Origin: Geobacter sp. FeAm09
GTDB taxonomy: Bacteria > Desulfobacterota > Desulfuromonadia > Geobacterales > Pseudopelobacteraceae
Length of the DNA stretch: 64,000 bases
Assembly: GCF_008330225.1 (NCBI RefSeq)
Contig: NZ_CP042466.1
Location: forward strand, 62,001 to 126,000
Direction of reading: 5' to 3'
The position numbers and the translations under genes were made by a program. Position 1 is the stretch's first letter. Each line of letters opens with the position of its first letter. The notes under the pieces are model-generated. The model saw only the letters and a program-made list of their open reading frames with translations. It was not told the DNA's origin and made no database searches. This document shows, piece after piece, positions 12,303 to 59,185 of the stretch.

Positions 12303-12321
12303 ACAATTATTCTGTTTAAAA

Positions 12322-12418: not shown

Positions 12419-12502
12419 CGTAATAATTCCGGCGAGTTAGATATATTCAAACCTGCCGCCGTTTTTTTTGCCTTTCGGGCCTTTTTGATGGAGATAATCT
12501 CG

Positions 12503-13840: not shown

Positions 13841-13870
13841 AACAGGTGAACGTCAGCAAGGAGATTACGT

Positions 13871-15651: not shown

Positions 15652-15663
15652 CCGGGAGCGTGC

Positions 15664-17625
15664 ATGCGGCAGCCAACCCTCCCTCTCATACTTCTGTTTT
15701 TGCTGCTGACATCCGTTCGGGAGGCCGGAGCGGCCAGGTTGGGTCTTTTGCTGCTCGGCACTCCGCAACAGCGCGTTGACTTCACCTATCAGTTCAACGG
15801 ACAGCAGCAGGCCACTACCTCGCAGCAGCACCAGATGGAGGAGGATTACACCTTCAAGATCGATTACGGCATCATCAGGCCGAGTCTGCTGAAGGGCTCC
15901 TTCAGGACCGCGCTGCGTTTCAACCAGGGGCTGACCTATCAGAGCGGTTCCCGGGATCAGTCGTCTTCGAAAATTGGATTTTTGTATGACATCAAGGGGC
16001 TCCTGCTCGGGCAATCGGTCGCTCCGGCAGAATTTTCCGCCAAATCGGACATCACCCAGGTTTCGGTCCCATTTTCAAAATCATACCAGGTGACCAATAC
16101 GACGTATAACCTCTCGTGGTCGCTGAAAAACAGGATGCTGCCGTTCTCCATCGAATACGCCACAGGCACCTCGGAAACCAGCGGATTGCAGGTAGACACC
16201 AAGCGGGTTCGCGACGAGATCCGGCTGCATGCCGCCCATAATGCCGCCATCAGCACCACCGCCGTCGATGTGTACAACATACACAATACCTACAGCCCCG
16301 CCCAGGGGGGGCTCAATTTCGACAACCATTATGAAATCAGACTCCAGAACGATTTGGTGTGGGCAGACGGTGCGAAAGCCCGCAGGGTGAGTTCCCGGCT
16401 GCAGGCATCGGAATCGACCGGGATCAACTTCACAAAAAATTTCGAGTGGAGCGAAGCAGTCCACTGGGATTGGGGGAAAAGCCTCCGCAGCGGCGCCAAC
16501 TACTCCTTTGGGAGCACGGGCGGAGACCCCGGCGCCCAAAAACATAATACCGGTGGCGCCTGGCTCCAGCACCAACTCTTCAAGAGCCTGACCACGCGGC
16601 TGGACCTACGGGCCCGGAAAAACGACTACCCCACGGGCTACGATCAGGAGATCAACGGTGGCGTGTCGTTCAACTATGTCAAACAGCTCCCGGCCCAGAG
16701 CACGCTTTCGCTCAACGGCTATCGCCAGTACACCCTGGACACTCGCGACCTTGGCACCGACCGGCTGCACATATATAATGAACAGCATACGGTGTCCTTT
16801 GCCTCCCATCTCTATCTGGCACAACCGAACGTGATCGCCAGCAGCATCACCGTGCGCAACGCCGACGCCTTGAAACGCCTGGCTCCCTATGACCTGAACG
16901 TGGATTACCAGGTGACCGTCAGCGGGGCCCTGACCGAGATCGTCCCGTTGACCAGCGGGGCGATCAAGGATGGGGACAGCCTGTTGATCAGTTATGACTA
17001 CCAGGTGGATCCCCAGTTGAAGACCACAACCAATGCGTACGGCTTTGGGGGCAATATCCAGTTTCTGGGCGGGAAATATCGCCTGTACGGTGATTTTTCC
17101 CAATCGCACATGGACCGTTCCGCCGGCCAGGGGCAGTTGGCCAGTCTGACGGCCCAAATAAGGTCTACGCTTGGTCTGGAGCGGAAATGGGACTCCGTTA
17201 CGCTTGGCGCCGAATACAACAGCTTTGATTCGGAAGCGGACAAGCACGAATCGCTTACGGCGCAGATGCGCTACAGCAACGAACTGCGTGACGGGGTCCT
17301 GTCGCTGACACTGGTCGACCAGTATCTCTGGTACGGGCCGGTTACCACCGGCACGACCACCAGCCGCAGGGCAGACGAAAACTCCTTCACGGCAACCGCC
17401 GGTTATGGCAAGCGACTCTTTTCCACGACATACATGACGCTCAACTCGACCTATATTAACGTAACGGGCGCCAACACGAAGGACAGTCTCACGGTTGGTG
17501 CCTCCCTGCGCTGGTCCCTCGGGAAGATGATTGCATCGTTGAACACCTCCCTGGGGCTGCGCCGCGAGGGAGGCACTACGGCCACCGACGAAACGGTGCG
17601 TTTCACGGTGTCACGTTATTTCTAA
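15664..17625 (+). CDS. Outer-membrane beta-barrel (porin) of the cytochrome conduit
   Basis: A 653-residue protein with a Sec signal peptide (LPLILLFLLLTSVREAGA). The mature chain alternates polar and hydrophobic residues with many aromatic-girdle segments (YTFKIDYGII, YNLSWSLKN, YRLYGDFSQSH). It ends VRFTVSRYF, with the C-terminal aromatic residue that the Bam machinery recognises. Cytochrome genes on both sides indicate a porin-cytochrome conduit. At 653 residues it could form a barrel of more than 20 strands, like MtrB-type porins, though no MtrB N-terminal CXXC motif is visible. The start has GGGAG six bases upstream. Confidence 0.85.
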   Translation: MRQPTLPLILLFLLLTSVREAGAARLGLLLLGTPQQRVDFTYQFNGQQQATTSQQHQMEEDYTFKIDYGIIRPSLLKGSFRTALRFNQGLTYQSGSRDQSSSKIGFLYDIKGLLLGQSVAPAEFSAKSDITQVSVPFSKSYQVTNTTYNLSWSLKNRMLPFSIEYATGTSETSGLQVDTKRVRDEIRLHAAHNAAISTTAVDVYNIHNTYSPAQGGLNFDNHYEIRLQNDLVWADGAKARRVSSRLQASESTGINFTKNFEWSEAVHWDWGKSLRSGANYSFGSTGGDPGAQKHNTGGAWLQHQLFKSLTTRLDLRARKNDYPTGYDQEINGGVSFNYVKQLPAQSTLSLNGYRQYTLDTRDLGTDRLHIYNEQHTVSFASHLYLAQPNVIASSITVRNADALKRLAPYDLNVDYQVTVSGALTEIVPLTSGAIKDGDSLLISYDYQVDPQLKTTTNAYGFGGNIQFLGGKYRLYGDFSQSHMDRSAGQGQLASLTAQIRSTLGLERKWDSVTLGAEYNSFDSEADKHESLTAQMRYSNELRDGVLSLTLVDQYLWYGPVTTGTTTSRRADENSFTATAGYGKRLFSTTYMTLNSTYINVTGANTKDSLTVGASLRWSLGKMIASLNTSLGLRREGGTTATDETVRFTVSRYF

Positions 17626-17644
17626 ATCAACGGTAGGTGCCCCA

Positions 17645-18709
17645 ATGGGAGAATACAACCACACACCGACGCGGGGAACATTGGTCGGCCGTCTCGCAGC
17701 CATCGGCATCCTCTGCATGCTGCTGGCCGCCTGCGCCGGTTCGGCGGCACAGACGACGCGGCGGATAGAATGGCCGCCTCCACCCGCACAGCCCCAGATC
17801 GCCTGGGCCGGAGAAGTCGGCAGCTATCTGGATGCAGGGATACGCAAAGGCTTCTGGCGCCGGCTGGCGGATGTCTTCGTAGGGGAAAGCGATGTTCGTA
17901 TCGGCCGCCCCTACGGCATCTACGTTGACGAAACCGGGCGGCTCCTTATCGCCGATCCCGCCTTTGGCGTTGTCCACGTCATGGATGCCGGCCAGAACAC
18001 CTATACGATCATCGGCCAAGGGGAAGGGCCCGCTTTCAAGAACCCGATCGCCATTACCGGCGACGGGGCGGGCAACGTTTATATTACCGACTCGGCGGCC
18101 AGTCTGGTGTACCGCTATAGCTTCCGGGATAACGCCCTGACCCCTTTTATCCATTCCGTCGAACGCCCGACCGGGATCGCCTTCAACCGGAGGAACCGGC
18201 TGCTATACGTGAGCGATACTACCTCCAGCCAGGTTGTCGTCTGCGACCTGAGCGGCAACGAACGCTTTCGCATCGGAGGAACAGGCTCCGGGCCGGGGCA
18301 ATTCAACCGCCCCACCGATCTTTTTATCGACAACAGCGGCACATTGTACGTCACCGATCCCCTGAACTCACGCATCCAGGTGTTTTCCGCCGAGGGGGTC
18401 TTCCGGAGGGCGTTTGGGCGGCCGGGCGACGGCGGCGGCGACTTCTCCAAGCCGAAAGGGGTTGCCGTGGACAGTAACGGCACCATCTATGTGGCCGATG
18501 CCCAACTCGATGCGGTACAGGTATACAACATGTCGGGCGGCTTCCGTTTTGAATTCGGTGCAAGCGGGAGCGAGGCCGGCACGTTCTGGATGCCGTCGGG
18601 CGTGCATATCGACCGCAACGACAGGATCTACGTGGCAGATACCTACAACCGGCGTATCCAGATCTTCCGGATTGTCCCGCCCGCGGCCCCGCAAGGAAAG
18701 GAGAAGTGA
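17645..18709 (+). CDS. Second NHL-repeat beta-propeller lipoprotein
   Basis: A 354-residue lipoprotein. The signal sequence contains the lipobox MLLAAC (Cys at about residue 26). Six NHL-type blades fill residues 75-345, for example GIYVDETGRLLIADPA, GIAFNRRNRLLYVSDT, DLFIDNSGTLYVTDPL, GVAVDSNGTIYVADAQ and GVHIDRNDRIYVADTY. It is paralogous in architecture to the gene at 13871-15061 but clearly different in sequence. It sits between the porin and the frameshifted cytochrome and probably acts with them at the outer membrane. Confidence 0.88.
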   Translation: MGEYNHTPTRGTLVGRLAAIGILCMLLAACAGSAAQTTRRIEWPPPPAQPQIAWAGEVGSYLDAGIRKGFWRRLADVFVGESDVRIGRPYGIYVDETGRLLIADPAFGVVHVMDAGQNTYTIIGQGEGPAFKNPIAITGDGAGNVYITDSAASLVYRYSFRDNALTPFIHSVERPTGIAFNRRNRLLYVSDTTSSQVVVCDLSGNERFRIGGTGSGPGQFNRPTDLFIDNSGTLYVTDPLNSRIQVFSAEGVFRRAFGRPGDGGGDFSKPKGVAVDSNGTIYVADAQLDAVQVYNMSGGFRFEFGASGSEAGTFWMPSGVHIDRNDRIYVADTYNRRIQIFRIVPPAAPQGKEK

Positions 18710-18713
18710 CGCC

Positions 18714-20527
18714 ATGAAACTCTTCCGCGCCATCCTGGCGGCTCTGGCGGTAGCAACCATGGCCCTGCCTTCCCGATCAGGCGCCGACAGCATCGTCAAC
18801 TCTCCCCACAACCTGTCGTCGGGAAGCACGGCCCGGGTGATGTCCACGGAAGAGACGCGGGTCTGCATCTTCTGCCATACCCCCCACCACGCGACCAAGC
18901 TTTCCGATACCAGCTATACCGGGCCGCTCTGGAGCCGCGAGGAGAACACCGCCCAGGACTATACTCCCTACGCGTCCACTACCATCGCAGCCAGCCCGGG
19001 CCAGCCCCAGGGGCCTTCACGACTCTGCCTGAGTTGCCACGACGGCACCATTGCCCTTGGCGCCCCGGGCACCCACGCCACCTCGGCGACACTTGGTCCC
19101 CTTACGCCGCCTCCCACCGGGAAATCGACCGTTCTGGGCAAGGACCTGCGCGACGACCATCCGATCTCCATGGAGTATGGCCGCAAGACCTCCGAATTCC
19201 GGGATGCCGCCACGGTGACCGGAACCACCCGCATCAAACTGGTGAGGCGCGCAAGCACCCTGTACGTGGAGTGCACCTCCTGCCACGACCCCCATGACAA
19301 CCAGTACGGCAATTTTTTGGTGTTGGACACCTCCAGCCACCGGGATGCACTCTGCACCGTCTGCCACGCCAAGACCGACTGGACGGGGAGTGCCCACGAG
19401 AACGGCGGCACCCGCTCCAGCGGGAGCATCCCGGCCGATGTGGCCAAGAACGGCTGCGTCAACTGCCACACCCCCACGGGGCCCAGCAGGGGGTCGATCT
19501 GCTGACGCTCACCGCCGCCGGGGCCAGCATGGACACGAACTGTTACGCCTCCTGCCACAACAGCTCCTCGTACCCGTCCAACGTCTACAGCCAGTTCGCC
19601 GTCTCCGGCGCACACCACCCGTCCGGCGGTTATGACAGCGCCGCCAACAAGCATAGTGAAACGGAAACGCTTCCCCTGCCGGCAACCGACAAGCATGTCC
19701 ATTGCGTGGATTGCCACAATCCCCACCAGGCGATCTGGCAGAACGCCCCCCTGAGCAACGCCACGGCCTCGCCCAACGGCCCGCCCAGCGTGAACGGCGT
19801 CCTCAAGGGGGTGCGGGGCATCGACATCAACGGCAGTCAGAAGACCGTGGCCAGCTACGAGTACGAGATCTGCTTCCGGTGCCACTCCGGCGATGCCGCC
19901 CTGGCAGGCAACTATAACACCTATCCGCAGGTGTCACGCACCTTCGGCTCGCTGGACGAGCGCGAGCGTTTCGACTGGGGGAGCGCCAAGTCCTGGCACC
20001 CGGTGGCCAAGGAATTCGTCCGGGTCGGGAACAGCCAGGGGCTGAGCCTCAAAAGCGCCAGCATGACCATGATCTACTGCAACGACTGCCACGACTCCCA
20101 CGGCTCGGGCAGCCACCTGCTGCGCCTGGAAAACCCGGACACCTTCTCCCAGGGGCAGAGCATCTCGAACTACCCGCTCTGCTATAGCTGCCACGACGAA
20201 ACCTATCTCACGAGTTCCGCCACCAACATCGGGAAACTGCACCGGGCCCACGTCTGGGGCCAGCACAACCCGCTCAGCACCAACAGCAGCTACCGGGCCT
20301 CCTGCTCCGCCTGTCACGACCCCCACGGCGTCCCGTACAAGGCCGGGCTCACCACCAGTTCCAATGCCCTGCACCTGATAAATTTCGACCTGCGCTACGC
20401 CGGCAGCGGGTCCTCCTACGATGCGTCAACCAGCAGCTGCCTCGTCACCGGCACCGGCACCAGCGGGCTTTCCTGCCACCCCACGACAACCGGCACGGCC
20501 AGTTTCAACCCCTATCCCTACCCCTGA
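18714..20527 (+). pseudogene. Multiheme cytochrome (about 12 hemes) with a one-base frameshift
   Basis: The first frame (18714-19505) encodes a signal peptide and an OmcE-like block: SPHNLSS, CIFCHTPHHA, LWSR, CLSCHDGTIAL, DDHPISMEY, CTSCHDPHDN, CTVCH, then CVNCH. It stops at 19503. The second frame continues at once as VDLLTLTAAGASMDTNC. A C5 run at 19471-19475, where C6 would restore CHTPHGAQQGVDLL, explains the break. Combined it has ten CXXCH, one CX3CH (CYASCH) and one CX11CH near the end. A one-base loss in a homopolymer may be a real mutation, a phase switch or a sequencing error. With the base restored the protein is about 600 residues. Confidence 0.85.
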
Positions 20528-20558
20528 CATCCCCGGCTGGCGGCCAGGCAAACCGTGC

Positions 20559-20597
20559 GACCCCTCTTCTTCCGTTTCGGGAGGAGAGGGGTCTTTT
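20559..20597 (+). terminator. Intrinsic terminator after the cytochrome-porin operon
   Basis: GACCCCTCTTCTTCC pairs with GGGAGGAGAGGGGTC (two G-U pairs) over a 5-base loop and is followed by CTTTTG. It lies about 30 bases past the end of the frameshifted cytochrome and closes the operon begun at the 12403 promoter. Confidence 0.8.
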
Positions 20598-20827
20598 GTC
20601 ATACCACGTGAAAAAACAGTGCCTCCGTGAAATAACCGTAATGGGGGGACGCTAAGTAACCAATAAACCGCAAAAACGACGAAAAATATATATGGTTAAT
20701 TTTGAATGTTTGAGCGCCCCGAATAGGGGAAAAAACTCGTAAGCATTCTCAATTATTTAAACTATTGTTCCCACCTCCCTCCCTGATCCCGACCGCCACG
20801 GTGTGCAATCCCCCCATTTTTGTTTGT

Positions 20828-20843
20828 TGGCACTCATGTTGCT
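20828..20843 (+). promoter_or_regulatory. Sigma-54 promoter of the OmcE-like cytochrome gene
   Basis: TGGCACTCATGTTGCT fits TGGCAC-N5-TTGCW exactly, with GG/GC spacing of 10 bases between the elements. The start of transcription would be near 20855, which leaves a leader of about 200 nt. The region from 20600 to 20827 shows only a small hairpin (CCCC-GAATA-GGGG near 20717) and AT-rich DNA that could hold activator sites. Confidence 0.82.
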
Positions 20844-20854
20844 ATCAAGACCTG

Positions 20855-21056
20855 TGGATAAATATCTGAAATATAGTAACAACCTGGAATTACAGGCCCA
20901 GGGTAAAAAACAGCACCAGGCTTTTCCGGTACTGACAAACCGGCGAGAGGAAAGGCGGAAAGGAGACGAGGCAGACAGATACCAAACCCGAATGCTGTAC
21001 GAAAGAGACTGGCAGTAGAATCCAATTTTAGACGAAAGAAAAGGAGACAGCTTACA
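20855..21056 (+). promoter_or_regulatory. Long structured 5' leader of the OmcE-like gene
   Basis: A gene-free ~200-nt leader with several possible hairpins, including CCGGT-8 nt-ACCGG (20926-20943) and nested CCTGG/CCAGG and CCTGT/ACAGG pairings between 20860 and 20921. A purine-rich stretch follows, then GGAGA before the ATG. No GEMM (cyclic dinucleotide) riboswitch core such as GGGACGCAAAGCC was found. It may still be a regulatory leader or a stabilising 5' UTR. Confidence 0.4.
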
Positions 21057-21845
21057 ATGAGAAAACAGATTTTGACTGCACTTGTGTTTGGTGCTCTCGG
21101 CGTTGCCTCGGCTGCACTCGCCGCGCCTGGGGATGGTGTTCTCAACTCGCCCCACAACATGACGACTTACGGCTATACCGATTCCAACGGGCGCGTGTGC
21201 GCATTCTGCCACACCCCTCACCATGCCGCCACCAGCACGAATGTCAGCGATTATCTGCCGCTTTGGTCCCGCGCCACGGATACCACGGTGTTCACCACCG
21301 CTTATGCCAGCTCGACCATCAACGCCGCCGAACTGCAGGAAACCACCAGCGACAAGGCTATCGGCCCGACCCGTCTCTGCATGAGCTGTCATGACGGCAC
21401 GATCGCCCCTGACCAGCACTACGGCAACACCGGCACCGCCGCCATGTTGACCGGCGACAACTTCCCGACCCTCGGCAACGGCGCAGGCGTTGGTGCCGGC
21501 ACCGCCGGTCTGTCCAACGACCATCCGGTCGGCTTCAGCTACACCGATGTGGCCGTCGGCCCCGCCACGGGCAGCCCGTCCGCCAGCGATATCTCCGCCG
21601 CCACCGCCAATCAGGATCCCTGGATTCGTCAGGCGAGCGTCACCTACACCGGCAACACCTACAATATCACGGTTCAGGACCGCCTCTATTTCTCCAACGG
21701 TAAATCGTACATGACCTGCGCTACCTGCCACGACGTGCACAACAAGAAGAACACGTACACGACTACGGGCACCGAGCCGGTCAACTACCTGGTGCTGGCA
21801 CCGCAGAAGGATTCCGCCCTCTGCCTGACCTGCCACATCAAGTAG
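21057..21845 (+). CDS. OmcE-like tetraheme cytochrome, candidate extracellular filament subunit
   Basis: A 262-residue secreted protein (signal peptide to about residue 22, ALAAPGDG) with exactly four CXXCH motifs: CAFCHTPHHA, CMSCHDGTIA, CATCHDVHN and CLTCH at the C-terminus. The spacing and flanking residues (NSPHNM, LWSR, SNDHPVGFSY, LVLAPQKDSALCLTCH) match the tetraheme OmcE of Geobacter sulfurreducens, which polymerises into extracellular nanowires. It has its own sigma-54 promoter and a strong AAGGAG site. It is followed by a giant cytochrome in probable co-transcription. Filament formation is inferred from family resemblance, not shown by sequence. Confidence 0.85.
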   Translation: MRKQILTALVFGALGVASAALAAPGDGVLNSPHNMTTYGYTDSNGRVCAFCHTPHHAATSTNVSDYLPLWSRATDTTVFTTAYASSTINAAELQETTSDKAIGPTRLCMSCHDGTIAPDQHYGNTGTAAMLTGDNFPTLGNGAGVGAGTAGLSNDHPVGFSYTDVAVGPATGSPSASDISAATANQDPWIRQASVTYTGNTYNITVQDRLYFSNGKSYMTCATCHDVHNKKNTYTTTGTEPVNYLVLAPQKDSALCLTCHIK

Positions 21846-21896
21846 ACCGGCCTGTAGGCAGAAACTTAGCGATTGAGAATCTGAAAGGAGAAAAGA

Positions 21897-24800
21897 ATGC
21901 GTAAATCTGCAGGCTTACTTATAACAGTCCTGCTTCTCCTGGTCGTTCCGGTCCTCGCCAGCGCGATGACATTGACGATCAAGGTAACGGGACCCACCGG
22001 CGTGGCGGGCAACAATGTCGCGCTCTCCGGTGGAACTGCGGCAACCGTGACGTCGGGTCTGAAATACTACTACCCGACCACCGCCACCTCGGCCACCATC
22101 AGCATGGCTGCCGGCTATACCTCCACGGTCAAGGTCGACGGCATTACCCAGAACCCCAACTATACGGGTACGGTCGGTCCCTGGACCTCCGGCTCCCACT
22201 CCGTTGAGGTCGCCTACAGCGGCACCGCCGCCACGACCTATGCCGTGACCATCACCCAGACCACGGGCGGCACCGTGTCCATCAAGCTGCCCAACGGCAC
22301 CTCCAACTCCAGCGGCGCTTCCGGCGTCTCCTCCGGGACGAGCATGCCGATCACCATCTCGGCAGCCGCCGGCTACAAGATCGCCACCTATAACATCGGC
22401 GCAGGCGTCGTGGCCTACGGCGGCACCGTTGCCGGCGAAGTCCTGACGCTGCCGTTCACCTGCACCGCCAACACGGCGGTAACGGCCACCTACACCCAGG
22501 CCCCCACGCTCAGCGCATCGCTGTCCGCTCCGCTGAACGGCTACACGAACACCGCGGTCAACGTCAAGACCACCGCAACCAGCACCGCTTTTGCCGCCTA
22601 CACCTCCTCCACCGGCATCATGTACAAGTACAATGCCAGGAAAGCAGCCGCCGGTTCCGCTTCGGTCGGCGCCGCCGACAGCACCACCAAGACCTTTGCC
22701 TTCACCCCGGATACCGTCACGGACTACATCGTTTCCGTGAAGGCATACCTCACCGCCAATACGGCGGTCTTCAAAAACATGTCGAGCCGCGTCACGGTGA
22801 CCTCCCTGACCGCCGCCATGAACAACCAGTGCACCTCCTGCCACGGTCCTTCCCCGCTGACCTTCTCCCAGATCGTGGCTGACTACAACGCCGGCGTCAA
22901 TGCCGGGGTAACCGCATGTAACAACGCGGCCTGCCACGGCGGTTCGCCCCACACCAGCCTGGACCTGCAGAAGGGTAATTTTGCACTGTCCTCGCACAAA
23001 AACGGCGCTCACGGCATCCTGTACGGAGCTAACATCTGTACTACGTGCCACAGCCATAAGACAAACCCCACGGCCGCCTATGTTGCGTACTCCTCTACCG
23101 GCAAAGTCTCCCGTACGCAAGCTTGCCAACAGTGCCACGCAATCGGTTCCGGCTATGGCGTGTTCAACAGCCAGACCGACACCGACCTGAAGAAGCCCCA
23201 CGGCAACGCCAACAAGGTCTTCACCATGAACGTAGGCGTCACCACCGTCGGCTGGTACTCGGGCAGCAGGTACGTCTTTGCCAATGCATCGACCTCCTAC
23301 GTCTCCCCGGCCGACGCCTGCTCCAACTGCCACGGCCACAACAACGTGATCAACGGCGAATACGCCGAGAACTACCATTCGGCCAACAACCGCTGGAAAA
23401 CCTCGTCGAGCCGCGCCTGGAAATACCAGGGGTACAGCTCGGCGGTAACGCCGGCCAACGTCTCCACCGACGGCTGCGTACGCTGCCACACCACCACCGG
23501 TTATGTGAATTTCGTAGCTAACTTCACCAACCTGCAGGCCTGGGGCTTCCAGGAGACCGGTTACACGGTGCAGACCTCTTCGGCCGCTGCAAACAACACC
23601 AACACCGTCTCTGAAGCGGTCAACTGCCGCGCCTGCCACACCGACGCGGAAGGCACCGTGCGTGTCGTCGCCGCCGCACAGGCCTACTACAACATGACCA
23701 CCGTGCCGTTCGGCAAGCTGAACAGCGGCCTGGTCCAGTACAGCGACTTCAAGAACTCCAACGTCTGCATCCCCTGCCACATGGGGCGCAACGGCGCCAC
23801 CAATGGCAACCTGCTTGACACGATCGCGACGAACTTCGCCGCCTTCGCCAGCATGACCAGCTTGACGGTCGGTACCGTCTCCGTCAGCCCGGGCGTACCC
23901 CACGGCGTCAACCAGGCCGGTATCCTGGATGCCAACATGGGCTACAAGTTCGGCAACAGCTACGTCAACGGCACCAACAGCCACGCCTACCTGGGCCGCT
24001 CCGGCGGCGATGTGGCCACCACCACCGATGCCGGTCCCTGCGTGACCTGCCACATGGACAACGACAGCGGCCACCGCAAACACGGCTTCGAAGTGTACAG
24101 CGCCACGGCCGGCAACAAACTGGCAGTGCCGACGGTCTGCTCCAACTGCCACGGCAAGGCCTTCAACGGCAACAACATCATCGCGGCTGAAGAGAAGTTC
24201 AACGCCGCCGTCAAGGTCCTGGCCGAGATCATGGCCGACGAGACCCTGACCTTCACCGGTACCCCGCTCCTGAGCACCAGCTACGGCTGGGCCAATGCTG
24301 GTGGCGGCCCGGGTGCAAACTCCGCCGGCAACAAGTATAACTTCGCCGGCAAGGCCGCCGACCTGAAGAAAGTCCTCGGCGCCTACTACAACCTGAAACT
24401 GCTGCAGAACGACGTGGCCGCCTTCGCCCACAACCCGGGCTACGCCAAGTGGCTCATCGCCCAGTCCATCGACGCGGTTCGCGTAACCTCCGCCTCGACC
24501 CCGGCTGCCGGCGTAACCTCCAAAACAACCACCTCGGCCGCCGACGCCATCAGCAAGGTCACGCCGGTCACGGGGAGCACCAGCCGCCCCACCGCTTCCG
24601 ACATCACGGAAGCCGCTGAGTTCCTCAAGGCGGACGGTCACTACGCATCCGGCACCTACAAGGTCCAGTACGTACTGAACGGCGGCAGCGACTGCGCAAC
24701 CTGCCACTACCCGAATGAGTCCGATACCCAGGCCGCGGCCCGGGTCGCCTGGTCCGAGTCCGGCCACGGCGAAACCACCGCTCTCCCCTGGATCCCGGCC

Positions 24801-26108
24801 TCCAACCACCTGTGGAGGGCTGCCGGTGTAACGACGTCGTTCGCCACCAACGTACCGGCAACCGACTGCGTACGCTGCCACACCGCAGCCGGCTTTGCCC
24901 AGTTCGTGGGCGCCGACGGCTCCACGGCATTCACCAACGTCAAAGCGGTAGCTACCGACGGTACGGTCAACTCGCCGCTCAACTGCAACACCTGCCACGT
25001 TAATCCGCTGACCTCCACGAGCGCACGGCTTACCGTCCCGGCAGTCTCCACCTACTACAACATCAGCTCTGCTGGTGTGAAGGCTCACCTCAACGCGACC
25101 TTCCCGGATGTGGGCGAGTCCAACATGTGCATCCCCTGCCACGCCGGCAGGCTCTCCGGTGCTGCCCTGGTAACGGCTGCCCCGGGTCTCAACTTCTCCA
25201 ACAGCAGCTTCCAGAACAGCCACTACATGGCGGCCGCAGGCCTCATGTACGCCAAGGTCGGCTTCACCGCCTTCACCACCGCCACGACCCCGGTTGCCTC
25301 TGGCAGCACCACCTCCTACGGCATGTCCCTCACGTCCAATGCCGACATGACCGTCAGCACCACCGGCGCTGCAATCGCCGGTGCACTCACCAGTACCCAC
25401 CGCAACCTGGGTACCGCCGCCATGCATGGCGACAGCCATAACACGGCGTACTTCGTGTCCGGCAACCTGGACACCAACGGCCCCTGCGTCACCTGCCACC
25501 TGAAGGGGTATGAAACCGACCAGACCGTGCGCCCCGGCGCCGGCCATTCCTTGAAGGTCGATGCCGCTGCCTGGCAGAACACCTGCAACAACTGCCACGC
25601 CGCCGAAGCGGGCATGAACGCCGCCGGCGACCAGCCGCTGCTGGTTGAAGAGCAGAAAGTGCCCTTCGACACCGCAATGAGCATCCTCCAGACCCTGGTC
25701 CAGACCAAACTGGGTACCGAGTTCGATTCCTCGGCCTATCCCTACTTCTACAAAGCGGGCTTTGCTCACACTTCTGCCAACGCTCTGAAGAACTGGACCG
25801 CCTTCACCACCGGTCTGGCAACACCGCTGAAAAACGAAGGTGCGGCATTCAACCTCAACCTGCTGGCACGCGAGCCGTATGCGTTCCTGCATGCCCGCAC
25901 CTACACCCGCCGCCTGATCTACGACACCATCGACTACCTCGATGACGGTCTGATGAACCAGTCGGTCAGCACGTACCTGGCCGCCAGCGGCGGTATCGGC
26001 GCCAAACCGGCCGATGCCAGCGGCACCACGGCCAACGATGCGGTATGGCAGTACTTCCTGGGCTACAACCGTACCTCCAAGGCCTGGAATACCGCAGAAC
26101 GTCCGTAG
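21897..26108 (+). CDS. Giant surface cytochrome, 16 heme motifs in tandem blocks
   Basis: A 1403-residue secreted protein with signal peptide to about residue 24. The first 300 residues are Thr/Ser/Gly-rich, apparently two or three beta-sandwich domains without cysteines. Fifteen CXXCH motifs and one CX4CH (CNNAACH) follow. The heme region is an internal tandem duplication. Each copy has, in order, CVRCHTxxG, CxxCHxD/N, CIPCHxGR, a CVTCH, then CSN/CNNCH and a long helical tail. The first copy spans about residues 480-860 and the second about 920-1330. The neutral, sugar-like composition and size suggest a cell-surface or secreted electron carrier. A strong AAGGAG precedes the start. No named Geobacter Omc was recognised. 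Confidence 0.9.
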   Translation: MRKSAGLLITVLLLLVVPVLASAMTLTIKVTGPTGVAGNNVALSGGTAATVTSGLKYYYPTTATSATISMAAGYTSTVKVDGITQNPNYTGTVGPWTSGSHSVEVAYSGTAATTYAVTITQTTGGTVSIKLPNGTSNSSGASGVSSGTSMPITISAAAGYKIATYNIGAGVVAYGGTVAGEVLTLPFTCTANTAVTATYTQAPTLSASLSAPLNGYTNTAVNVKTTATSTAFAAYTSSTGIMYKYNARKAAAGSASVGAADSTTKTFAFTPDTVTDYIVSVKAYLTANTAVFKNMSSRVTVTSLTAAMNNQCTSCHGPSPLTFSQIVADYNAGVNAGVTACNNAACHGGSPHTSLDLQKGNFALSSHKNGAHGILYGANICTTCHSHKTNPTAAYVAYSSTGKVSRTQACQQCHAIGSGYGVFNSQTDTDLKKPHGNANKVFTMNVGVTTVGWYSGSRYVFANASTSYVSPADACSNCHGHNNVINGEYAENYHSANNRWKTSSSRAWKYQGYSSAVTPANVSTDGCVRCHTTTGYVNFVANFTNLQAWGFQETGYTVQTSSAAANNTNTVSEAVNCRACHTDAEGTVRVVAAAQAYYNMTTVPFGKLNSGLVQYSDFKNSNVCIPCHMGRNGATNGNLLDTIATNFAAFASMTSLTVGTVSVSPGVPHGVNQAGILDANMGYKFGNSYVNGTNSHAYLGRSGGDVATTTDAGPCVTCHMDNDSGHRKHGFEVYSATAGNKLAVPTVCSNCHGKAFNGNNIIAAEEKFNAAVKVLAEIMADETLTFTGTPLLSTSYGWANAGGGPGANSAGNKYNFAGKAADLKKVLGAYYNLKLLQNDVAAFAHNPGYAKWLIAQSIDAVRVTSASTPAAGVTSKTTTSAADAISKVTPVTGSTSRPTASDITEAAEFLKADGHYASGTYKVQYVLNGGSDCATCHYPNESDTQAAARVAWSESGHGETTALPWIPASNHLWRAAGVTTSFATNVPATDCVRCHTAAGFAQFVGADGSTAFTNVKAVATDGTVNSPLNCNTCHVNPLTSTSARLTVPAVSTYYNISSAGVKAHLNATFPDVGESNMCIPCHAGRLSGAALVTAAPGLNFSNSSFQNSHYMAAAGLMYAKVGFTAFTTATTPVASGSTTSYGMSLTSNADMTVSTTGAAIAGALTSTHRNLGTAAMHGDSHNTAYFVSGNLDTNGPCVTCHLKGYETDQTVRPGAGHSLKVDAAAWQNTCNNCHAAEAGMNAAGDQPLLVEEQKVPFDTAMSILQTLVQTKLGTEFDSSAYPYFYKAGFAHTSANALKNWTAFTTGLATPLKNEGAAFNLNLLAREPYAFLHARTYTRRLIYDTIDYLDDGLMNQSVSTYLAASGGIGAKPADASGTTANDAVWQYFLGYNRTSKAWNTAERP

Positions 26109-50682: not shown

Positions 50683-52809
50683 ATGTTCAAATCAAAATTG
50701 ACGCGCAAGATCCTGACCATGATCGGCGGCATACTCTGTATCGGCTTTGCCGGCCTGGGCATTCTCTCCATTTACCTCGAATACAGCGCCACGATGGACC
50801 TGGAAAAGCGCAACGCCCGCCAGATTGCGGCAACGGTGAGCCATGACCTGCTCAACCTCATGACTATCGGCGATATGAAGAATTTCGGCGCCTACGTGAA
50901 GGACATCAAGGCCAAGGGCGGCATCCAGGAAATCAGGCTGTTCAACGGCGAGGGGAAGGAATGGGGCGGCAACGGCGCGCCGAGCGAAGAGGTGCGTGCG
51001 GCCTTGCGCACGGGCAAGAACGTTGAAGTCCTGGACACGAAGGATGGCCGGCACCTTCTGACGCTGGCGCTGCCCCTGGAGAACGAACAGCGCTGTCACG
51101 GCTGCCACGATGCCACGGCCCGGTACCGGGGTGGACTGATGCTGACGACCTCCCTGGAAGAGGGGTATGCAAGCGCGTTGCGGCTGACGGTCGTGTTGTC
51201 GGTGGTCGGTTTCTGTTTCTTCTTTGCCATCCTGACGGCTTTGTACCTCTTCTTCAGCCGGACGCTGGTGCTCCAGGTCAGGGAACTGCACGGGCAGTTG
51301 GCCGAGATGGCCAGCGGCGAGGGGGATCTGACCAAGTCCTTGCGGGTCCGTTCCGACGACGAGTTGGGGAACCTGGGTACGGAGGTCAACCGGTTGACGG
51401 CCAAGATCCGCGAAACCGTCTCGCTTCTGTACCAGCAGGCCTGCATGATCGGCAGCGGCGTCTGCGAACTCTCCTTCGGCACAGACCGCACCCTGCGCAT
51501 GAGCCAGGACCAGAAGGAACAGGCTTCGGCGGTGGCCGTGGCGTCGGAAGAGATGTCCATGACCATCAACGACGTGGCCGGCAACACCCACCGTGCGGCG
51601 ACGCTCTCGTCGGACGTGGATGCGGCGGCCAGCGACGGCATGGCGGTGGTGGAAGAAACCTGGAACTGCATGCGCCAGATCAGCGAGAGCGTGAACAGTA
51701 CGCTGGAGACCATCCGCCAGTTGGAGGCTTCGTCCGCAAGCATCGGCGAGATGGTGGTGCTCATCGAGGATATCGCCGACCAGACCAACCTGCTGGCGCT
51801 GAACGCCTCCATCGAGGCGGCCCGCGCCGGCGACGCAGGAAAGGGGTTCGCCGTGGTGGCCAGCGAGGTCAAGGGGTTGGCCGAGAAGACCACCCGATCC
51901 ACCCGGGAGATCGAGAGGGTGGTGGGCAACATCCAGCAGGCCAGCCGGAAGGCCGCCGCCATGATCGTCACGGAAACCGGCCTCGTCCAGACCGGCCTCA
52001 CCAAGGCCGAGGAGGCTCGCCAGCGCCTTGAGAACATCAAGAGCCATGCCGTCGAATCGCGCACCATGATCGAACAGATTGCCACCGCCTCCGAGCAGCA
52101 GAGCGCCACGACCCAGGAGATTTCGGAGAAGATCCAGAGCGTTTCCACCACGGCGAACGAAACGTTTGAGCTGACCCAGGCGACCAACGAGGCGTTTGGG
52201 ACCTTTTCGGACCTGGTGGAGCAGATCTACGGCACTGTGGGCAAATTCTCGGTCGGTAATTACCACGACACCGTCAAATCCCATATCCGCGGGATGGAAG
52301 GGGAGGTGCTGGAGGCGGTCGAGGCGGCGCTGCGCGACCGGACGATCACCCTGGAGGCGCTCTTCGACAGGAACTATGTCCCCATCCCCAATACCGAGCC
52401 GCAAAAGTACACGACCAAATTCGACGCCTTCTTCGACCGCGTGATCTCCTCCTTCCAGGAGAAGGCGGTGGGCAAGGACAGCAAGCTCCTGTACGCCATC
52501 TGCGTGGACAACAACGGTTATTGCCCGTGTCACAACCTGCGCTACACCAAGCCGCTGACCGGAGACCCGGGGGTGGACAAGAACAATAACCGCACCAAGC
52601 GGATCTTCAACGACCGCACCGGCATCCGCTGCGCCCGCAACACCGACGGCTTCCTGCTCCAGACCTACCGCCGCGATACGGGAGAGATCCTCAACGACAT
52701 GTCGCTGCCGCTCCTGATCAACGGCAGGCATTGGGGCGGCATCCGCATCGGCTATCTGTCGCCGTGCGAGCTGGTCATCAAGCTGGACAGGAAAACCGCG
52801 GGCACCTGA
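50683..52809 (+). CDS. Methyl-accepting chemotaxis protein with periplasmic heme-c motif and C-terminal sensor-like domain
   Basis: A 708-residue receptor. TM1 spans about residues 10-30. The periplasmic domain (31-163) carries one CHGCH heme-c motif (Cys138), as in the Geobacter heme-binding chemoreceptors related to GSU0582 and GSU0935. TM2 lies at about 166-187 and HAMP at about 188-245. The signalling helices have the conserved tip [31 protein letters not shown] near residue 366. A C-terminal extension (about 530-708) contains [36 protein letters not shown] and [11 protein letters not shown], a small-molecule or redox sensor-type domain on the cytoplasmic side. It probably senses redox state. 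Confidence 0.92.
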
Positions 52810-53176: not shown

Positions 53177-55648
53177 GTGAACATGTCGAAGGATTTATTG
53201 CTGCAAGCCATAAAACGGAGACTCTCGTGCGGTATGCTGCTGGCAGGACTGCTCTCGGTGGTATTCGCCCTTGCAAACCCTGCGGCGGCAATCTCCGCAA
53301 CCGGTTTCCAGGGGACGGTGACCAACGCCTCGGGCGGCCTGGGCAGCGTGGAGGTCGCGGTTTTTTACAATACCGGCGATCCGGTTCCCAGCGTGACATC
53401 GGTTACCACCGCTGCCGACGGCACGTATACCTTCAGCGGGCTCACCGCCGGGAGCTACCTGGTGTCGTTCACGAGCGGTTCTTCGACGCTGTGGTACAAA
53501 AACAAGCTGTCCTATGCCCAGGGAGACCTGGTCACGGTGGTGGATGGCGCACTGACCCCCGACATCAATGCCTACTTCGGGACCTGGGGGAATATCTCCG
53601 GCCGGGTGACCAATGCGTCGAACACCGGCATAGCCGGGATACAGGTGACGGTCTGCGATGGGAGCGGCACGGCCATCTCCACGATACCCCCGGTCACCAC
53701 CGCCAGTGACGGCAGCTATACGATCAGTGTCGTCCCGGTCGGCAGCAGCTACACGATCAAGTTCAGCGACAGCAGCAACACCTACGTGGACGAGTGGTAT
53801 GACAATCACCTCAATTCAGGTTATACGGCAAGCGGTTTTGCTGCAACCCGCGTGACGGTCAGCGACGGCGAAACCACCCCTCTGGCGACGGCGGTTCTGG
53901 TGACGCCGAGCATCTCGGGGAAGGTGAGCAACCTGGCGGGAACGGCCCTGTCGGGGATTACCATCGATATATTCGATGCCTCCACATTCAATGCGGTAAC
54001 GGACACCAACGGCGAGCTGATCACAACGGTTCAAACCCGTGCCGACGGAACCTACCTGTTGGGCGGGGTTCCGGCCGGGAGTTACAAGATCATTTTCAAT
54101 TCCGCCGCGACGAACGGTTATGCCAAGCAATACTACAATAACAAGACGACCTCCCTGAGCTCGGCGGACACGGTTGTCGTCACGAGCAACGCGACGACAA
54201 CCGCCATCAATGCCACACTAAAATCCACCACCGCCCCCACGGTCAGCACCTTCACCGTGCCGGCGACCTCCAATTCCCTGACCATTTCCGGCATCACCCT
54301 GACGGCCACCGGCCTCAACGGGGTCACGGGATACCTGATCACCGAAAGCTCGACGGTGCCGCTTGCCGCCGCCAGCGGCTGGACGGCCGCCGCGCCCACC
54401 AGTTATACCGCCTCCACCAGCGGCAGCGTCACCCTGTACCCCTGGGCAAAGGATGCCAACAGCCTGGTTTCGGCGGTCTACGGGAGCCCCCAGACCGTGA
54501 CGATAGCCCTGCCGGTCAATGGCGCCTGCGGCACGGCCAACGGCGGCAGCTTCTATGTCGCCCCCACTGCCAACCTCTGCTCGACGGGAACGGCTTCAAC
54601 GGTGAGCGGCACCGGCCCCTGGAGCTGGACCTGTTCCGGCACCAACGGCGGTACCGCGGCGAACTGTTCGGCCACGCTCCTGGCCGGCAGCGACACCACA
54701 CCGCCGACCCTGGCCGTTTCCACCCTGGCCGACGGCGCCACCACGAACAATCAGGTATTGAACGTCAGCGGCACGGTGACCGATGCCGGGAGCGGCATCC
54801 AGAGCCTGACGGTCAAGGGGCAGGCTGCAACGGTCGCTTCCGACGGCTCCTTCAGCAGCGCGGTCAGCCTGGCAAGCGGCAGCAACACCATCGCCGTCGT
54901 TGCCACCGATGGCTCCGGCAACTCCACCACCGTCATCCGTACCATCACCTTCACCGCCAGCGCCCCCCTGTTGACCGTCACGTCACCGGCGGACAACAGC
55001 GCCAGCAATCAGTCATCCCTGACGGTCAGCGGTACTGTGGACAGTACCGCCACTGGCCTGACCGTCAACGGGACGAGCGTCGCGATCAGCGGTGGGGCGT
55101 ATTCCACGTCGGTCAGTCTGGCAGCGGGCCTCAATACGATCAGCATCGTCGCCACTGCGCCTGGCGGAACGACCACCGCCAAACGTACCGTCAGCTACGA
55201 CAGCAGCCGTTCGAGCCTGGCGGTCACATTCCCGAAACGTGATATCGCCACCACCCAGACCGGCATCACCCTCCTGGGCACGGTCAGCAGCGACGTCACC
55301 GCGGTGACCATCACCATGAACGGCCAGACCTATACCCCGGCCATCTCCAGCAGCAGTTTCCAGCAGGCGCTCGCCTTCAGCACGGCCGGCACCTATGCCA
55401 TAACCGTCAGCGCGGCCGGACAGAACAGCACGACCACCACGGTCCAGCGCAACGTCATCTTCTCCACCACGGCGGTCAAGGCCGGCGACTGCGACGCTAG
55501 CGGAACAGTCACCATCGCCGAGGTGCAGAGCGCCATCAACATGTACCTGGGACTGAAGCAGGTCCAGGTATGCGTGGATCTGGACAACAGCGACGCGGTC
55601 AGCATTTCGGAGGTTCAAAAGGCGATCAATGCCTACCTTGGCTTGTAG
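53177..55648 (+). CDS. Large secreted modular protein with C-terminal dockerin-type domain
   Basis: An 823-residue protein from a GTG with AAGGAG six bases upstream (ATG 53183 is the alternative). After the signal peptide (to about residue 40), three carboxypeptidase-regulatory/CNA-B-like beta domains cover about 45-350 (GxVTNASGxGLxxVxV...ADGTYTFSGLxAGSYLVxF). Ig-like repeats cover about 350-760 (GYLITESS...YPWAKDA; LAVSTLADGAT). The end is a dockerin type I-like domain: GDCDASGTVTIAEVQSAINMYLG and VDLDNSDAVSISEVQKAINAYLGL, two calcium-binding loops. Dockerins bind cohesins; the next gene encodes one. Probably a surface assembly component. Confidence 0.85.
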   Translation: MNMSKDLLLQAIKRRLSCGMLLAGLLSVVFALANPAAAISATGFQGTVTNASGGLGSVEVAVFYNTGDPVPSVTSVTTAADGTYTFSGLTAGSYLVSFTSGSSTLWYKNKLSYAQGDLVTVVDGALTPDINAYFGTWGNISGRVTNASNTGIAGIQVTVCDGSGTAISTIPPVTTASDGSYTISVVPVGSSYTIKFSDSSNTYVDEWYDNHLNSGYTASGFAATRVTVSDGETTPLATAVLVTPSISGKVSNLAGTALSGITIDIFDASTFNAVTDTNGELITTVQTRADGTYLLGGVPAGSYKIIFNSAATNGYAKQYYNNKTTSLSSADTVVVTSNATTTAINATLKSTTAPTVSTFTVPATSNSLTISGITLTATGLNGVTGYLITESSTVPLAAASGWTAAAPTSYTASTSGSVTLYPWAKDANSLVSAVYGSPQTVTIALPVNGACGTANGGSFYVAPTANLCSTGTASTVSGTGPWSWTCSGTNGGTAANCSATLLAGSDTTPPTLAVSTLADGATTNNQVLNVSGTVTDAGSGIQSLTVKGQAATVASDGSFSSAVSLASGSNTIAVVATDGSGNSTTVIRTITFTASAPLLTVTSPADNSASNQSSLTVSGTVDSTATGLTVNGTSVAISGGAYSTSVSLAAGLNTISIVATAPGGTTTAKRTVSYDSSRSSLAVTFPKRDIATTQTGITLLGTVSSDVTAVTITMNGQTYTPAISSSSFQQALAFSTAGTYAITVSAAGQNSTTTTVQRNVIFSTTAVKAGDCDASGTVTIAEVQSAINMYLGLKQVQVCVDLDNSDAVSISEVQKAINAYLGL

Positions 55649-55744
55649 TACGCGATGAAACAGCGTAGGCTGTTGAGGATTACGGACACAATTAACCGTC
55701 GAGGCGTTTGCGAAAAACGAAAGAATCAGGTTCGAGGAGGAAGT

Positions 55745-57826
55745 ATGAGGTGCAGGATCAGCCTATTGATAGTGACCATAGTATTGGCGTGTGCCTTTCC
55801 CCTGGCAGCCGGCGCCGCGACCCTTGATCTCGGGAGTGCCAGCGGTACCGCCGGAACGACGGTTTCCATTCCGATTACCCTGACCAACAGCGGCGCCAGC
55901 ATCGCAGCCGTCGGCATTGACATCGGTTATGATGCCACGCTGTTGTCCAGCCCGACGGCCGTCATCGGCGCGGCAGGCACCGCTGCGGGCAAGTCGGTAT
56001 CAACGAGTACCCCGTCAACGGGGGTATTCAGGATTGGCGTAGCCGCCCTGAACACCACCGCGATCGGCGACGGCGTGGTTGCCACCGTATCCTTCACCAT
56101 CTCCTCCTCCGCGCCGGCCGGTGCCCTGACTCTCACCAACACCCCATCAGCATCGGACCCGAGCGGCACTGATGTCACCATCACCGGTGCCAACGGGACG
56201 ATTACCGTATCGGCCGCGCCGGACACCACCGCCCCGACGGTCACCGCCTTTGCCGTCACCACCCCGATCAACAGCCTGACCGTGCCGGTGACCAGCTTCA
56301 CAGCAACGGATAGCGTGGGCGTTACCGGCTACCTCATCACCGAAAGCAGCACGGCGCCCGCCTCCAGCGCCACCGGGTGGACGGCTGCCGCGCCAAGCAG
56401 CTATACCGCCGCCAGCTCCGGCTCCAAAACCCTCTACGCCTGGGCCAAGGATGCGGCGGGCAACGTCTCGGCAAGCAGGAGCGCCACCGTACTCATCGAC
56501 ACGACCGCCCCGACGGTCTCGGCCTTTACCATGCCCTCGACCGCCACAACCCTTGCCGTGGCTGTTTCCAGTTTCTCCGCAACGGATACCGGCGGCAGCG
56601 GCGTAGCCGGGTACCTGATTACCGAAAGCGCCACGGCTCCTGCCGCCAGCGCCAGCGGGTGGAGCTCCAGCATACCCACCAGCTTCACCGCCACCAGCGG
56701 CGGCAGCAAGACCTTCTACGCCTGGGCCAAGGATGCGGCGGGCAACGTCTCGGCAGGCAAGAGCGCCAGCGTGACCATCACCCTGTCCGGCCCGACCTTG
56801 ACGGTAAGCACCCTGCCCGACGGCACCAGCACCAAGAACCCGACCCTCAACATCACCGGTACGGTTACGGCCGGGGGCAGTGCGGTGTCGGGCCTGACCA
56901 TCGCGCTCAACGGCGGCACGCCTGTTCCGGTTACTTTCGATGGCAGCGGCAATTTCAATACCGCCATTACGCTGACGAACGGAGCGAATGTCATTGTCGT
57001 TACCGCGACCGACGCCGGTAGCAACACCAGCACCAATACGCGTACTATTACGTTGGACCCGAACCTGGCCGACCTGACAATAACCCAACCGGCTACGAGC
57101 TCAAGTTTTACCCAGCAGAATTTTTACAATATCGTCGGTACTGTAGGTGCCCCGCAAACAACCAGTTCTGTGACCATCCAGGTCAACAGCGACACACCGG
57201 CTACAGCCGTACTGGATGGCGCGAATTTCTCGCTCACGGTCAGCCTTGCCTCCGGTCGTAATGACATCACCATTACGGCTACAGATTCCGTTAGCGGAAC
57301 CCATACTGAACTCAGAACCATTACCTCTGACAGCAATGCACCGGTTTTGGCAGTAACCAGTCCAGCTCAGGACGTTACGATCCATGAAGCAAGCATAACA
57401 CTGAGCGGCACGGTTACGGATGCCGTTACCAGCGCCGTGATCACCATCGCAGCAAACGGCGTGACCTATACCCCCACTGTTGGGACTGACGGCAGCTTCA
57501 GCCAGGTTATCCCGCTCCCCACGTACAAAACCTATGCAATCGATGTCACCGCCACGGATCAGGCGGCAAATACCGCCACTATTCGGCGCAATGTGATCAG
57601 GGCATACCCCACGGGTGCGTTGGATGGTACCTCGATACCGACCATTGCCGATGCCATAAAGGTACTGCGCTTTTCCTTGGGTTTGGACACGCCGACCGCT
57701 ACCCAGTTGATCAACTGCGACGTCGGTCCCCTGGACAGCAACAAAAAGCCGTTGCCGGATGGCGTGATCGATATCCGCGATGTTCTGTTGGTCCTTGAGA
57801 GGGCTGTTGGAACGATTACTTGGTAA
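55745..57826 (+). CDS. Cohesin-domain scaffold protein with degenerate C-terminal dockerin
   Basis: A 693-residue protein; ATG 55745 has GAGGAGG five bases upstream. After the signal peptide comes a cohesin domain (about residues 25-160: LDLGSASGTAGTTVSIPITLTN, GIDIGYDATLLSS, VATVSFTISSSAPAGALTLT). About five Ig/fibronectin-like repeats follow, containing TAPTVxAF...GYLITESSTAPA...TLYAWAKDAAGNVSA. The C-terminal 75 residues (TGALDGTSIPTIADAIKVLR...NCDVGPLDSN...DGVIDIRDVLLVLERAVG) are a weaker dockerin-like domain. Cohesin and dockerin in one protein suggests it bridges partners. It shares repeats with the upstream gene. Confidence 0.83.
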   Translation: MRCRISLLIVTIVLACAFPLAAGAATLDLGSASGTAGTTVSIPITLTNSGASIAAVGIDIGYDATLLSSPTAVIGAAGTAAGKSVSTSTPSTGVFRIGVAALNTTAIGDGVVATVSFTISSSAPAGALTLTNTPSASDPSGTDVTITGANGTITVSAAPDTTAPTVTAFAVTTPINSLTVPVTSFTATDSVGVTGYLITESSTAPASSATGWTAAAPSSYTAASSGSKTLYAWAKDAAGNVSASRSATVLIDTTAPTVSAFTMPSTATTLAVAVSSFSATDTGGSGVAGYLITESATAPAASASGWSSSIPTSFTATSGGSKTFYAWAKDAAGNVSAGKSASVTITLSGPTLTVSTLPDGTSTKNPTLNITGTVTAGGSAVSGLTIALNGGTPVPVTFDGSGNFNTAITLTNGANVIVVTATDAGSNTSTNTRTITLDPNLADLTITQPATSSSFTQQNFYNIVGTVGAPQTTSSVTIQVNSDTPATAVLDGANFSLTVSLASGRNDITITATDSVSGTHTELRTITSDSNAPVLAVTSPAQDVTIHEASITLSGTVTDAVTSAVITIAANGVTYTPTVGTDGSFSQVIPLPTYKTYAIDVTATDQAANTATIRRNVIRAYPTGALDGTSIPTIADAIKVLRFSLGLDTPTATQLINCDVGPLDSNKKPLPDGVIDIRDVLLVLERAVGTITW

Positions 57827-57857
57827 GTGTGCAAACAACCATTACGGAGAGATAGAT

Positions 57858-59051
57858 ATGAACGTTATAAAAGGCTTGGTTTTGCTTGGCATGGTACTCG
57901 CGCTTTCCGCTTGCGGCAGCGGCGATTACGGTAGTTCCTCATCTACTGTCGTCAGCGGCGTGGCCTCCGCCGGGATCATCTCGGGGGGCACGGTCAAGGC
58001 GTTTGTAGCCTACAGCAGTGCCAACGAGGTTAAAAAACAGCTCGGCAGCACCGGGACAACTGATGCAAATGGTGTTTATAAGATCGACATCGGCTCCTAT
58101 GCCGGGCCAGTGATCGTCGAGGTTACGGGGGGGAGCTACACCGACGAAGCCACCGGCAACACCGGACAAAGCATCCCGACCGCCGCCCCCCTGCGCGCGG
58201 CAGTGAACGCGTCCAGCGGCGCCCTCAGCGTTGCGGTCACCCCCCTGACCGAACTTGCCCTCAGATTGGCGAAAACCGCTGGCAACAAGCTGACCAAGAC
58301 AAATATCGATGCGGCCAACAGCATGATATCGCAACTGTTCAAGATGGACATCATTGCCACATTACCGGTTGCTCCTACGGCAACCGCGTTCAGTGCAGCC
58401 ACCCAGGCCCAGAAGGACTACGCCCTGGCCCTGGCGGCCATTTCTCAATTTATGAAAACCAATTCTTCCACAGACCTATCGGCTCAACTTGAAGTCTTAA
58501 TTGGGGGAATTAGCCTGACCTCCGGCATGTCAACAGGGACAACCTCTAATCTAACAACCGCGCTCAGCGCATTCCTTGCCGCCGATACCACCCTTAATCA
58601 AACCGGTGTTACAAGCCTTTACGACACAGGTCTGCAAAACATGGGTACCACTACCATGACATTGACCCTTGCTTTGAGCGGGACCAACGTTGCTTCGGTC
58701 AAGGCGATTCAAGCGACAATCAACCTGCCAACCGGGATCAAAGTCCGCGCTCACGCCATTACCAGTGGCGAACCTCTGGACGGCGTTCTTACCCCACTTG
58801 CGGGGGGTACGTCGCCATTGCTTAACGGGAGCTATACTTCTTCCACCACCCCAGCCACACTCAAGTTGAACTTTGCCACAACAGCTAACTTGGTTGCAGG
58901 CAATATCATCAGTGTGACCTTTGACGTTACACCGGGGACAGCAACCCCGTCAGCATCTGATTTTAGCTTGACTGGCATCGTTCTGATTGATGCCACCGCC
59001 GCGGATGTGAGTGGCGCGACGTTAAGCGTGTCGAAACTAGCCGCGCCGTAG
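57858..59051 (+). CDS. Lipoprotein with C-terminal cohesin-like domain
   Basis: A 397-residue lipoprotein: LVLLGMVLALSACGSG gives a lipobox with Cys at residue 20. A carboxypeptidase-regulatory-like beta domain follows at about 30-100 (GTVKAFVAYSS...TDANGVYKIDIGSYAGPVIVEVTGGSY). A helical region covers about 130-250. A C-terminal beta domain, about residues 280-395 (TLALSGTNVASVKAIQATINLPTG...LVAGNIISVTFDVTPGTATPSASDF), looks cohesin-like. It could anchor the two upstream proteins to the outer membrane. The start is 31 bases after the cohesin/dockerin gene stop, with GGAG upstream. Confidence 0.78.
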   Translation: MNVIKGLVLLGMVLALSACGSGDYGSSSSTVVSGVASAGIISGGTVKAFVAYSSANEVKKQLGSTGTTDANGVYKIDIGSYAGPVIVEVTGGSYTDEATGNTGQSIPTAAPLRAAVNASSGALSVAVTPLTELALRLAKTAGNKLTKTNIDAANSMISQLFKMDIIATLPVAPTATAFSAATQAQKDYALALAAISQFMKTNSSTDLSAQLEVLIGGISLTSGMSTGTTSNLTTALSAFLAADTTLNQTGVTSLYDTGLQNMGTTTMTLTLALSGTNVASVKAIQATINLPTGIKVRAHAITSGEPLDGVLTPLAGGTSPLLNGSYTSSTTPATLKLNFATTANLVAGNIISVTFDVTPGTATPSASDFSLTGIVLIDATAADVSGATLSVSKLAAP

Positions 59052-59112: not shown

Positions 59113-59149
59113 AAAAGAAAGAGCCGGGGCGCATAGTTGCCCCGGCTCT
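59113..59149 (-). terminator. Intrinsic terminator between the cohesin cluster and the M16 operon
   Basis: AGAGCCGGGGC (59120-59130) and GCCCCGGCTCT (59139-59149) form a perfect 11-bp stem over an 8-base loop. On the minus strand it is followed by TTCTTTT, so it best ends the M16 operon; it may also stop plus-strand transcripts. Confidence 0.85.
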
Positions 59150-59185
59150 CGCTATCTGGTTCCTGACGTGCCTTGTTTCGCGGGT

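Follow-up and report, generated by a model that had tools for sequence, protein, structure and literature searches.

The window analysed here is a stretch of 64,000 nucleotides (nt) from Geobacter sp. FeAm09 (contig NZ_CP042466.1, positions 62,001 to 126,000), and its positions 53177-59051 are filled by three genes, A, B and C, all on the plus strand according to the open reading frames (ORFs) of the window. Gene A (53177..55648) encodes a candidate client protein with a signal-peptide-like N-terminus, three CarboxypepD_reg modules, immunoglobulin-like (Ig-like) Glucodextran_B modules and a C-terminal dockerin. Gene B (55745..57826) encodes an adaptor with a signal-peptide-like N-terminus, a cohesin, Ig-like modules and a C-terminal dockerin of its own, and gene C (57858..59051) a predicted lipoprotein anchor. 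The intergenic gaps of 96 nt (A-B) and 31 nt (B-C) are compatible with a single operon. A sequence-only reading of this locus had proposed a non-cellulosomal cohesin/dockerin assembly, and here we report a computational analysis of the three proteins, their relatives in other genomes and the competing explanations.

Protein A is 823 amino acids (aa) long and terminates in paired EF-hand loops of the patterns DxDxS....T..E and DxDxS....S..E, with the calcium-ligand positions kept in both (dockerin A, 55472..55645, +). The Pfam model Dockerin_1 (PF00404) did not match protein A itself even at E up to 1; in the dockerin A family (alignment A3, 18 members) and at the same threshold, the EF-hand pair model matched 17/18 members and Dockerin_1 4/18, with a best Dockerin_1 E of 0.0012. 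Compared with PDB profiles, the best 60 of 135 matches of this family were calmodulin-like or other EF-hand proteins, and none was named a dockerin. Both results favour an explanation in which only B and C form a cohesin-dockerin pair, the EF-hand pair of A being stabilised by calcium and serving as an end cap with no affinity for B, and A being co-inherited for another reason. Against it, hhalign matched the dockerin A family to the family of the dockerin of B (B-type) with a probability of 96% and a P of 4.3e-9, in keeping with the initial claim that the first protein ends in a dockerin. Together with the distribution across genomes described below, this leads us to regard the end cap as unlikely. 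The idea that the source genome holds several clients of the dockerin A type was rejected, as a single match was found there.

The listed ORF of B begins further upstream; its likely start is the ATG at 55745, preceded by GAGGAGGAAG. The cohesin of B (55820..56209, +) was matched by the Pfam Cohesin model (PF00963) with an E of 5.6e-13 in the protein and 3.1e-14 in the genome search, passing the cut-off with 49.7 bits vs 24.1, and it is the only cohesin in the protein. The B-type dockerin (57611..57823, +) has a degenerate loop 1, from which most calcium ligands are missing, and a loop 2 with an insertion (alignment A2). PF00404 gave no match to the C-terminus of the window protein at E up to 1. 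It matched 26/38 members of the B-type family at that threshold (best 5.1e-7), and the top PDB profile matches of this family were dockerins, with weak scores (1ohz_B, E 0.0024; 2ccl_B, E 0.0029). At the family level, the A-type and the B-type ends both appear to carry two F-hand/EF-hand loops of dockerin type. The sequence-only reading had called B a scaffold; its N-terminal cohesin and weak C-terminal dockerin were found, but with one cohesin and one dockerin the protein is better described as an adaptor than as a many-site scaffold. The middle part of B gave a partial match to an exoglucanase model, far below the cut-off, and the Pfam scan of A, B and C found no catalytic carbohydrate-active domain, as had been noted from the sequence. 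Searches with B for related loci gave one locus among genome contigs, which has the repeat part alone in common, and none among viral contigs.

Protein C, with a likely start at ATG 57858, carries the lipobox MNVIKGLVLLGMVLALSAC (LSAC), whose Cys is invariant in the 40-member alignment A1. Its N-terminal domain (CN; 57882..58578, +, boundary approximate) matches no Pfam family in the window protein. The C-terminal domain (Ccoh; 58635..59048, +) was compared with cohesins by hhalign and by structure. Between the last 135 residues of C and the B-cohesin profile, the match was about as strong as that between two cohesin sets accepted by Pfam. Against the B-type cohesin profile C scored 35.0, with at most 19.5 for 60 column shuffles and at most 21.7 for three Ig-like families. 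A weak single-sequence AF2 model of the domain (pLDDT 58) found cohesins as its best structural matches with Foldseek and VIA-align; 22/25 top rows of VIA-align were titled cohesin or Coh, and the Archaeoglobus fulgidus cohesin 2xdh ranked third. Two results weigh against a cohesin: PF00963 matched 0/40 sequences of A1, window C included, and C gave no Pfam or PDB match. As C fails the Pfam cohesin test, we label the domain cohesin-like only; at that strength, the profile comparison and the low-confidence fold model support the view that the third gene encodes a lipoprotein with a cohesin-like end. A kinship of the C profile to secretin cohesins was not convincing (P 0.0049 and 0.012). A plasmid search with C returned one weak partial match, at 35.5% with the part of CN at residues 45-209; it lies at CP013100.1:76236-76733, in a plasmid of the biocathode-culture bacterium Candidatus Tenderia electrophaga.

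Relatives of C were found in 39/97 genomes, source genome included. A profile built from 40 C relatives matched 11/395 genomes sampled from the phylum. Five of these are among the 9 genomes listed from the same family or order, and the other six lie elsewhere, five with a match confined to the CN part and one with a match confined to the Ccoh part. We scanned 60 stretches around part of the C matches, the window and four further stretches with custom profiles. Of the ORFs carrying at least one of CN and Ccoh, 68 in all, 48 have an ORF with a B-type dockerin ending <=250 nt upstream. When both domains of C are present (window included), this holds for 38/43; the five misses comprise one at a contig end (L053), one with the dockerin 587 nt off (L104) and three without a recognised upstream dockerin (L051, L061 and L067). 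The corresponding counts are 6/14 for Ccoh-only and 4/11 for CN-only ORFs. In 52/52 ORFs (domain E <1e-3), no more than 6 residues (0-6) separate the B-type dockerin from the C-terminus; for one weaker match (L049:6182-6928) the distance is 12 residues.

The B-type dockerin profile matched 65/94 genomes and 13 places in the source genome. Eleven source-genome dockerins were examined (9 of the 13 profile matches, L016 and the second of L136), and a Ccoh protein is encoded directly downstream in 7/11, one of these, in L014, weakly scored. In the remainder, L016 carries Ccoh itself and three have no recognised Ccoh (two in L136, one in L140). At seven dockerin loci of other genomes, Ccoh follows downstream in L143, L144 and L145 and in none of L141, L142, L146 and L147. 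The protein at L016:8850-9512 is 221 aa long and joins a cohesin-like domain and a dockerin on one chain, and L136 encodes tandem dockerin proteins (8537-11809 and 11925-14000) in a stretch where a cohesin-like gene was not recognised. To judge from these arrangements, the B-C step is better read as a general unit, with A as one kind of client.

The same data bear on the notion that the modules are parts of surface proteins, Ig-like or EF-hand-like, that do not bind one another, in an operon kept by co-expression alone. Besides the missing database matches of C, the mirror-tree comparison lends itself to this explanation: in 40 pairs, the correlation of dockerin distances with CN (r 0.67) is no weaker than with the cohesin-like domain (r 0.63), and the signal is thus not domain-specific. 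The explanation fits poorly with the dockerin found upstream of Ccoh-only ORFs, where the rest of the lipoprotein is absent and CN is evidently not needed, and with the margin by which C exceeds shuffles and Ig-like families against the B-type cohesin profile. We therefore consider it very unlikely.

At the A-B step, dockerin A is present in 8/94 genomes (E up to 1e-4) and the B-type cohesin in 12/94 (E up to 1e-5), with all 8 dockerin-A genomes among them. The hypergeometric probability of this co-occurrence is 4.4e-9, or 3.5e-8 when the source genome is left out, both values ignoring kinship between the genomes. In all 8 dockerin-A genomes, the B-type cohesin shares its protein, the adaptor, with a B-type dockerin, and a lipoprotein of the C kind comes next; this lipoprotein was recognised by CN only in G050 and by Ccoh only, beside a run of N, in G007. 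The G050 adaptor is 243 aa long, barely more than cohesin and dockerin; G088 and G091 have an extra small cohesin-plus-dockerin protein between A and B. In G088, the neighbour of the adaptor genes scored only weakly as A-type, the strong match being located in another part of the contig. Nine A-type matches, with frames of 854-2519 aa, were counted in G017 vs one B-type cohesin; seven of the nine fall in a region of about 40 kb on one contig, with the adaptor-anchor pair about 7 kb beyond. Dockerin and cohesin genes are kept together across genomes at both steps, in 38/43 cases for B-C and 8/8 for A-B. The complete overlap with the B-type cohesin and the nine A-type dockerins served by one such cohesin speak against the end cap considered above.

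In the other four genomes with the B-type cohesin, a profile search found an A-type dockerin in three and not in G009. The cohesin proteins of G042, G060 and G009 have no recognised B-type dockerin and another C-terminal end. A C-terminal domain of GGYD... type replaces the dockerin in the B-type cohesin proteins L160:9373-10407, L161:3616-4659 and L158:6555-8345, perhaps as an alternative anchoring. A fold model of dockerin A, the natural linker and cohesin B as a single chain, with the TAG stop at 55646 read as Q, was uninformative (pLDDT 45).

Taken with the conserved pairing, the A-type dockerin/B-type cohesin co-occurrence, the gene order and the modules make it probable that A, B and C form a three-tier, non-cellulosomal cohesin-dockerin assembly of client, adaptor and lipoprotein anchor. 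The three-gene assembly first suggested by the sequence is thus well supported by comparative genomics. In the proposed arrangement, C would sit as a lipoprotein in the outer membrane, where its cohesin-like C-terminal domain would grip the dockerin at the C-terminus of B. Protein B would in turn use its N-terminal cohesin to grip the C-terminal dockerin of A. The outcome would be the display of A, a large, Ig-rich, adhesin-like protein, away from the membrane. We infer that both contacts involve physical, calcium-dependent binding, that they are made on the outer face of the cell and that the displayed protein may serve in adhesion or a matrix.

The source genome also encodes a secretin (L013:7271-9859; G000, 1.453-1.456 Mb) that ends in a Pfam cohesin. 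It belongs to a type II-like secretion locus with GspE/GspF-like, PilM/N/O-like and two pseudopilin-like ORFs; except for the secretin and its cohesin, these names were read from the sequence. Cohesin-dockerin contacts could therefore serve export, and C might be a periplasmic pilot or holding factor for the export of very large secreted proteins instead of a permanent surface anchor. At many loci, a dedicated lipoprotein adjoins the cargo gene, which looks like fixed anchoring, and we find the periplasmic role improbable. Many of the 94 genomes have cohesin matches in frames of about 800-900 aa, the identification as a secretin coming from L013 alone.

A Pfam scan of six B-type dockerin proteins showed that two from the source genome (L085:7510-12159 and L014:2734-7500) have multicopper-oxidase domains, each with four HxH motifs and an HCHxxxHxxxx(M/F) motif and each lying upstream of a gene for a cohesin-like protein, for which the match in L014 is weak. 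The other four gave NHL repeats with MBG domains, fibronectin arrays, Ig and NHL modules, and no match, respectively. Five clients scanned in G017 matched, among others, Sortilin-Vps10, Lcl_C, propeller and Ig-like families. CXXCH motifs occur in 0/21 ORFs with an A-type match and in 1/52 B-type dockerin ORFs.

The multicopper proteins OmpB and OmpC of Geobacter sulfurreducens resemble these two dockerin proteins, the likeness to GSU1394/GSU2657 being one of domain content; the passages on OmpB/OmpC (PMC3495685, PMC10599522) mention no dockerin. One of these sources lists GSU1395 immediately behind ompB (GSU1394), its expression changing in a similar way (PMC10599522). OmpB is reported there, with a citation of Mehta 2006, to require a type II secretion system (PMC10599522), and we hypothesise that the secretin involved corresponds to the cohesin-bearing one, its cohesin recruiting dockerin cargo. 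More broadly, the bacteria of this order might have a genome-wide plug-in surface system, in which many large proteins, OmpB-like multicopper oxidases included, would carry C-terminal dockerins and often adjoin a cohesin-like lipoprotein anchor, and in which the cohesin of the secretin would make the dockerin an export tag first and an anchor tag afterwards; this is a speculative extension to which we attach a low probability.

Immediately upstream of gene A, at 50683-52809, lies a gene for a protein resembling chemotaxis receptors, whose sensor part contains a CHGCH motif. CXXCH motifs number from 4 to 15 in each of six stop-to-stop frames at 12368-26105 of the window, one of which is 1407 aa long and has 15. 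As these multi-CXXCH ORFs (12.4-26.1 kb of the window), the presumed cytochrome genes, are about 27 kb away, the description of the locus as lying beside extracellular electron transfer genes is weak for the window, although two dockerin proteins elsewhere in the source genome carry multicopper-oxidase domains. Between C and the convergent downstream gene, a terminator-like stem was found at 59119..59150 (-), which we rate as weak, since 3 such sites were found vs 6.0 expected in shuffles. A promoter scan found none, where 2.6 were expected.

In the clostridial cellulosome, enzyme dockerins bind a scaffoldin, which is in turn held by a cell-surface anchoring scaffoldin. A-B-C likewise has dockerin clients, an intermediate with cohesin and dockerin, and a cell-bound cohesin-like protein. 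The clostridial anchor is an S-layer homology (SLH) or sortase protein, whereas that of A-B-C is a lipoprotein; A-B-C also differs in the single cohesin of its adaptor and in the lack of a catalytic glycoside hydrolase family in the Pfam scan of A, B, C and 13 other cargo or client proteins. Peer et al. in 2009, cited in PMC9012536, reportedly described cohesin/dockerin proteins outside cellulose degradation. A-B-C shares this trait with such non-cellulosomal cohesins and dockerins, including 2xdh of Archaeoglobus fulgidus, and adds a conserved three-tier gene order and a lipoprotein anchor.

In anaerobic methanotrophic (ANME) archaea and syntrophic sulfate reducers, cohesin/dockerin proteins have been discussed as adhesins (PMC9012536, PMC10553843), and in a corrosive methanogen cohesins were proposed to anchor hydrogenases (PMC11452385). 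The ANME and syntroph adhesins are, like A-B-C, surface cohesin/dockerin proteins, and their hosts exchange electrons with partners. The passages concerned describe multi-cohesin proteins, ABC substrate-binding clients and putative adhesins and, unlike A-B-C, no lipoprotein anchor beside the cargo (PMC9012536, PMC10553843). Given these reports, the suggestion that such a use is undescribed was too strong. For the lipoprotein-anchored version, the open-access literature surveyed, mostly at listing level, gave no account of cohesin-dockerin pairs anchored by outer-membrane lipoproteins in Geobacter-like bacteria.

If the pairs bind, they would represent a widespread route by which cells with an outer membrane display very large proteins, using cellulosome parts and lipoprotein anchors, and several cohesin-dockerin pairs would operate inside one genome. 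They would also offer a testable answer to how proteins of the outer surface are retained by the cell, among them, possibly, the multicopper proteins of OmpB type on which iron-oxide reduction depends.

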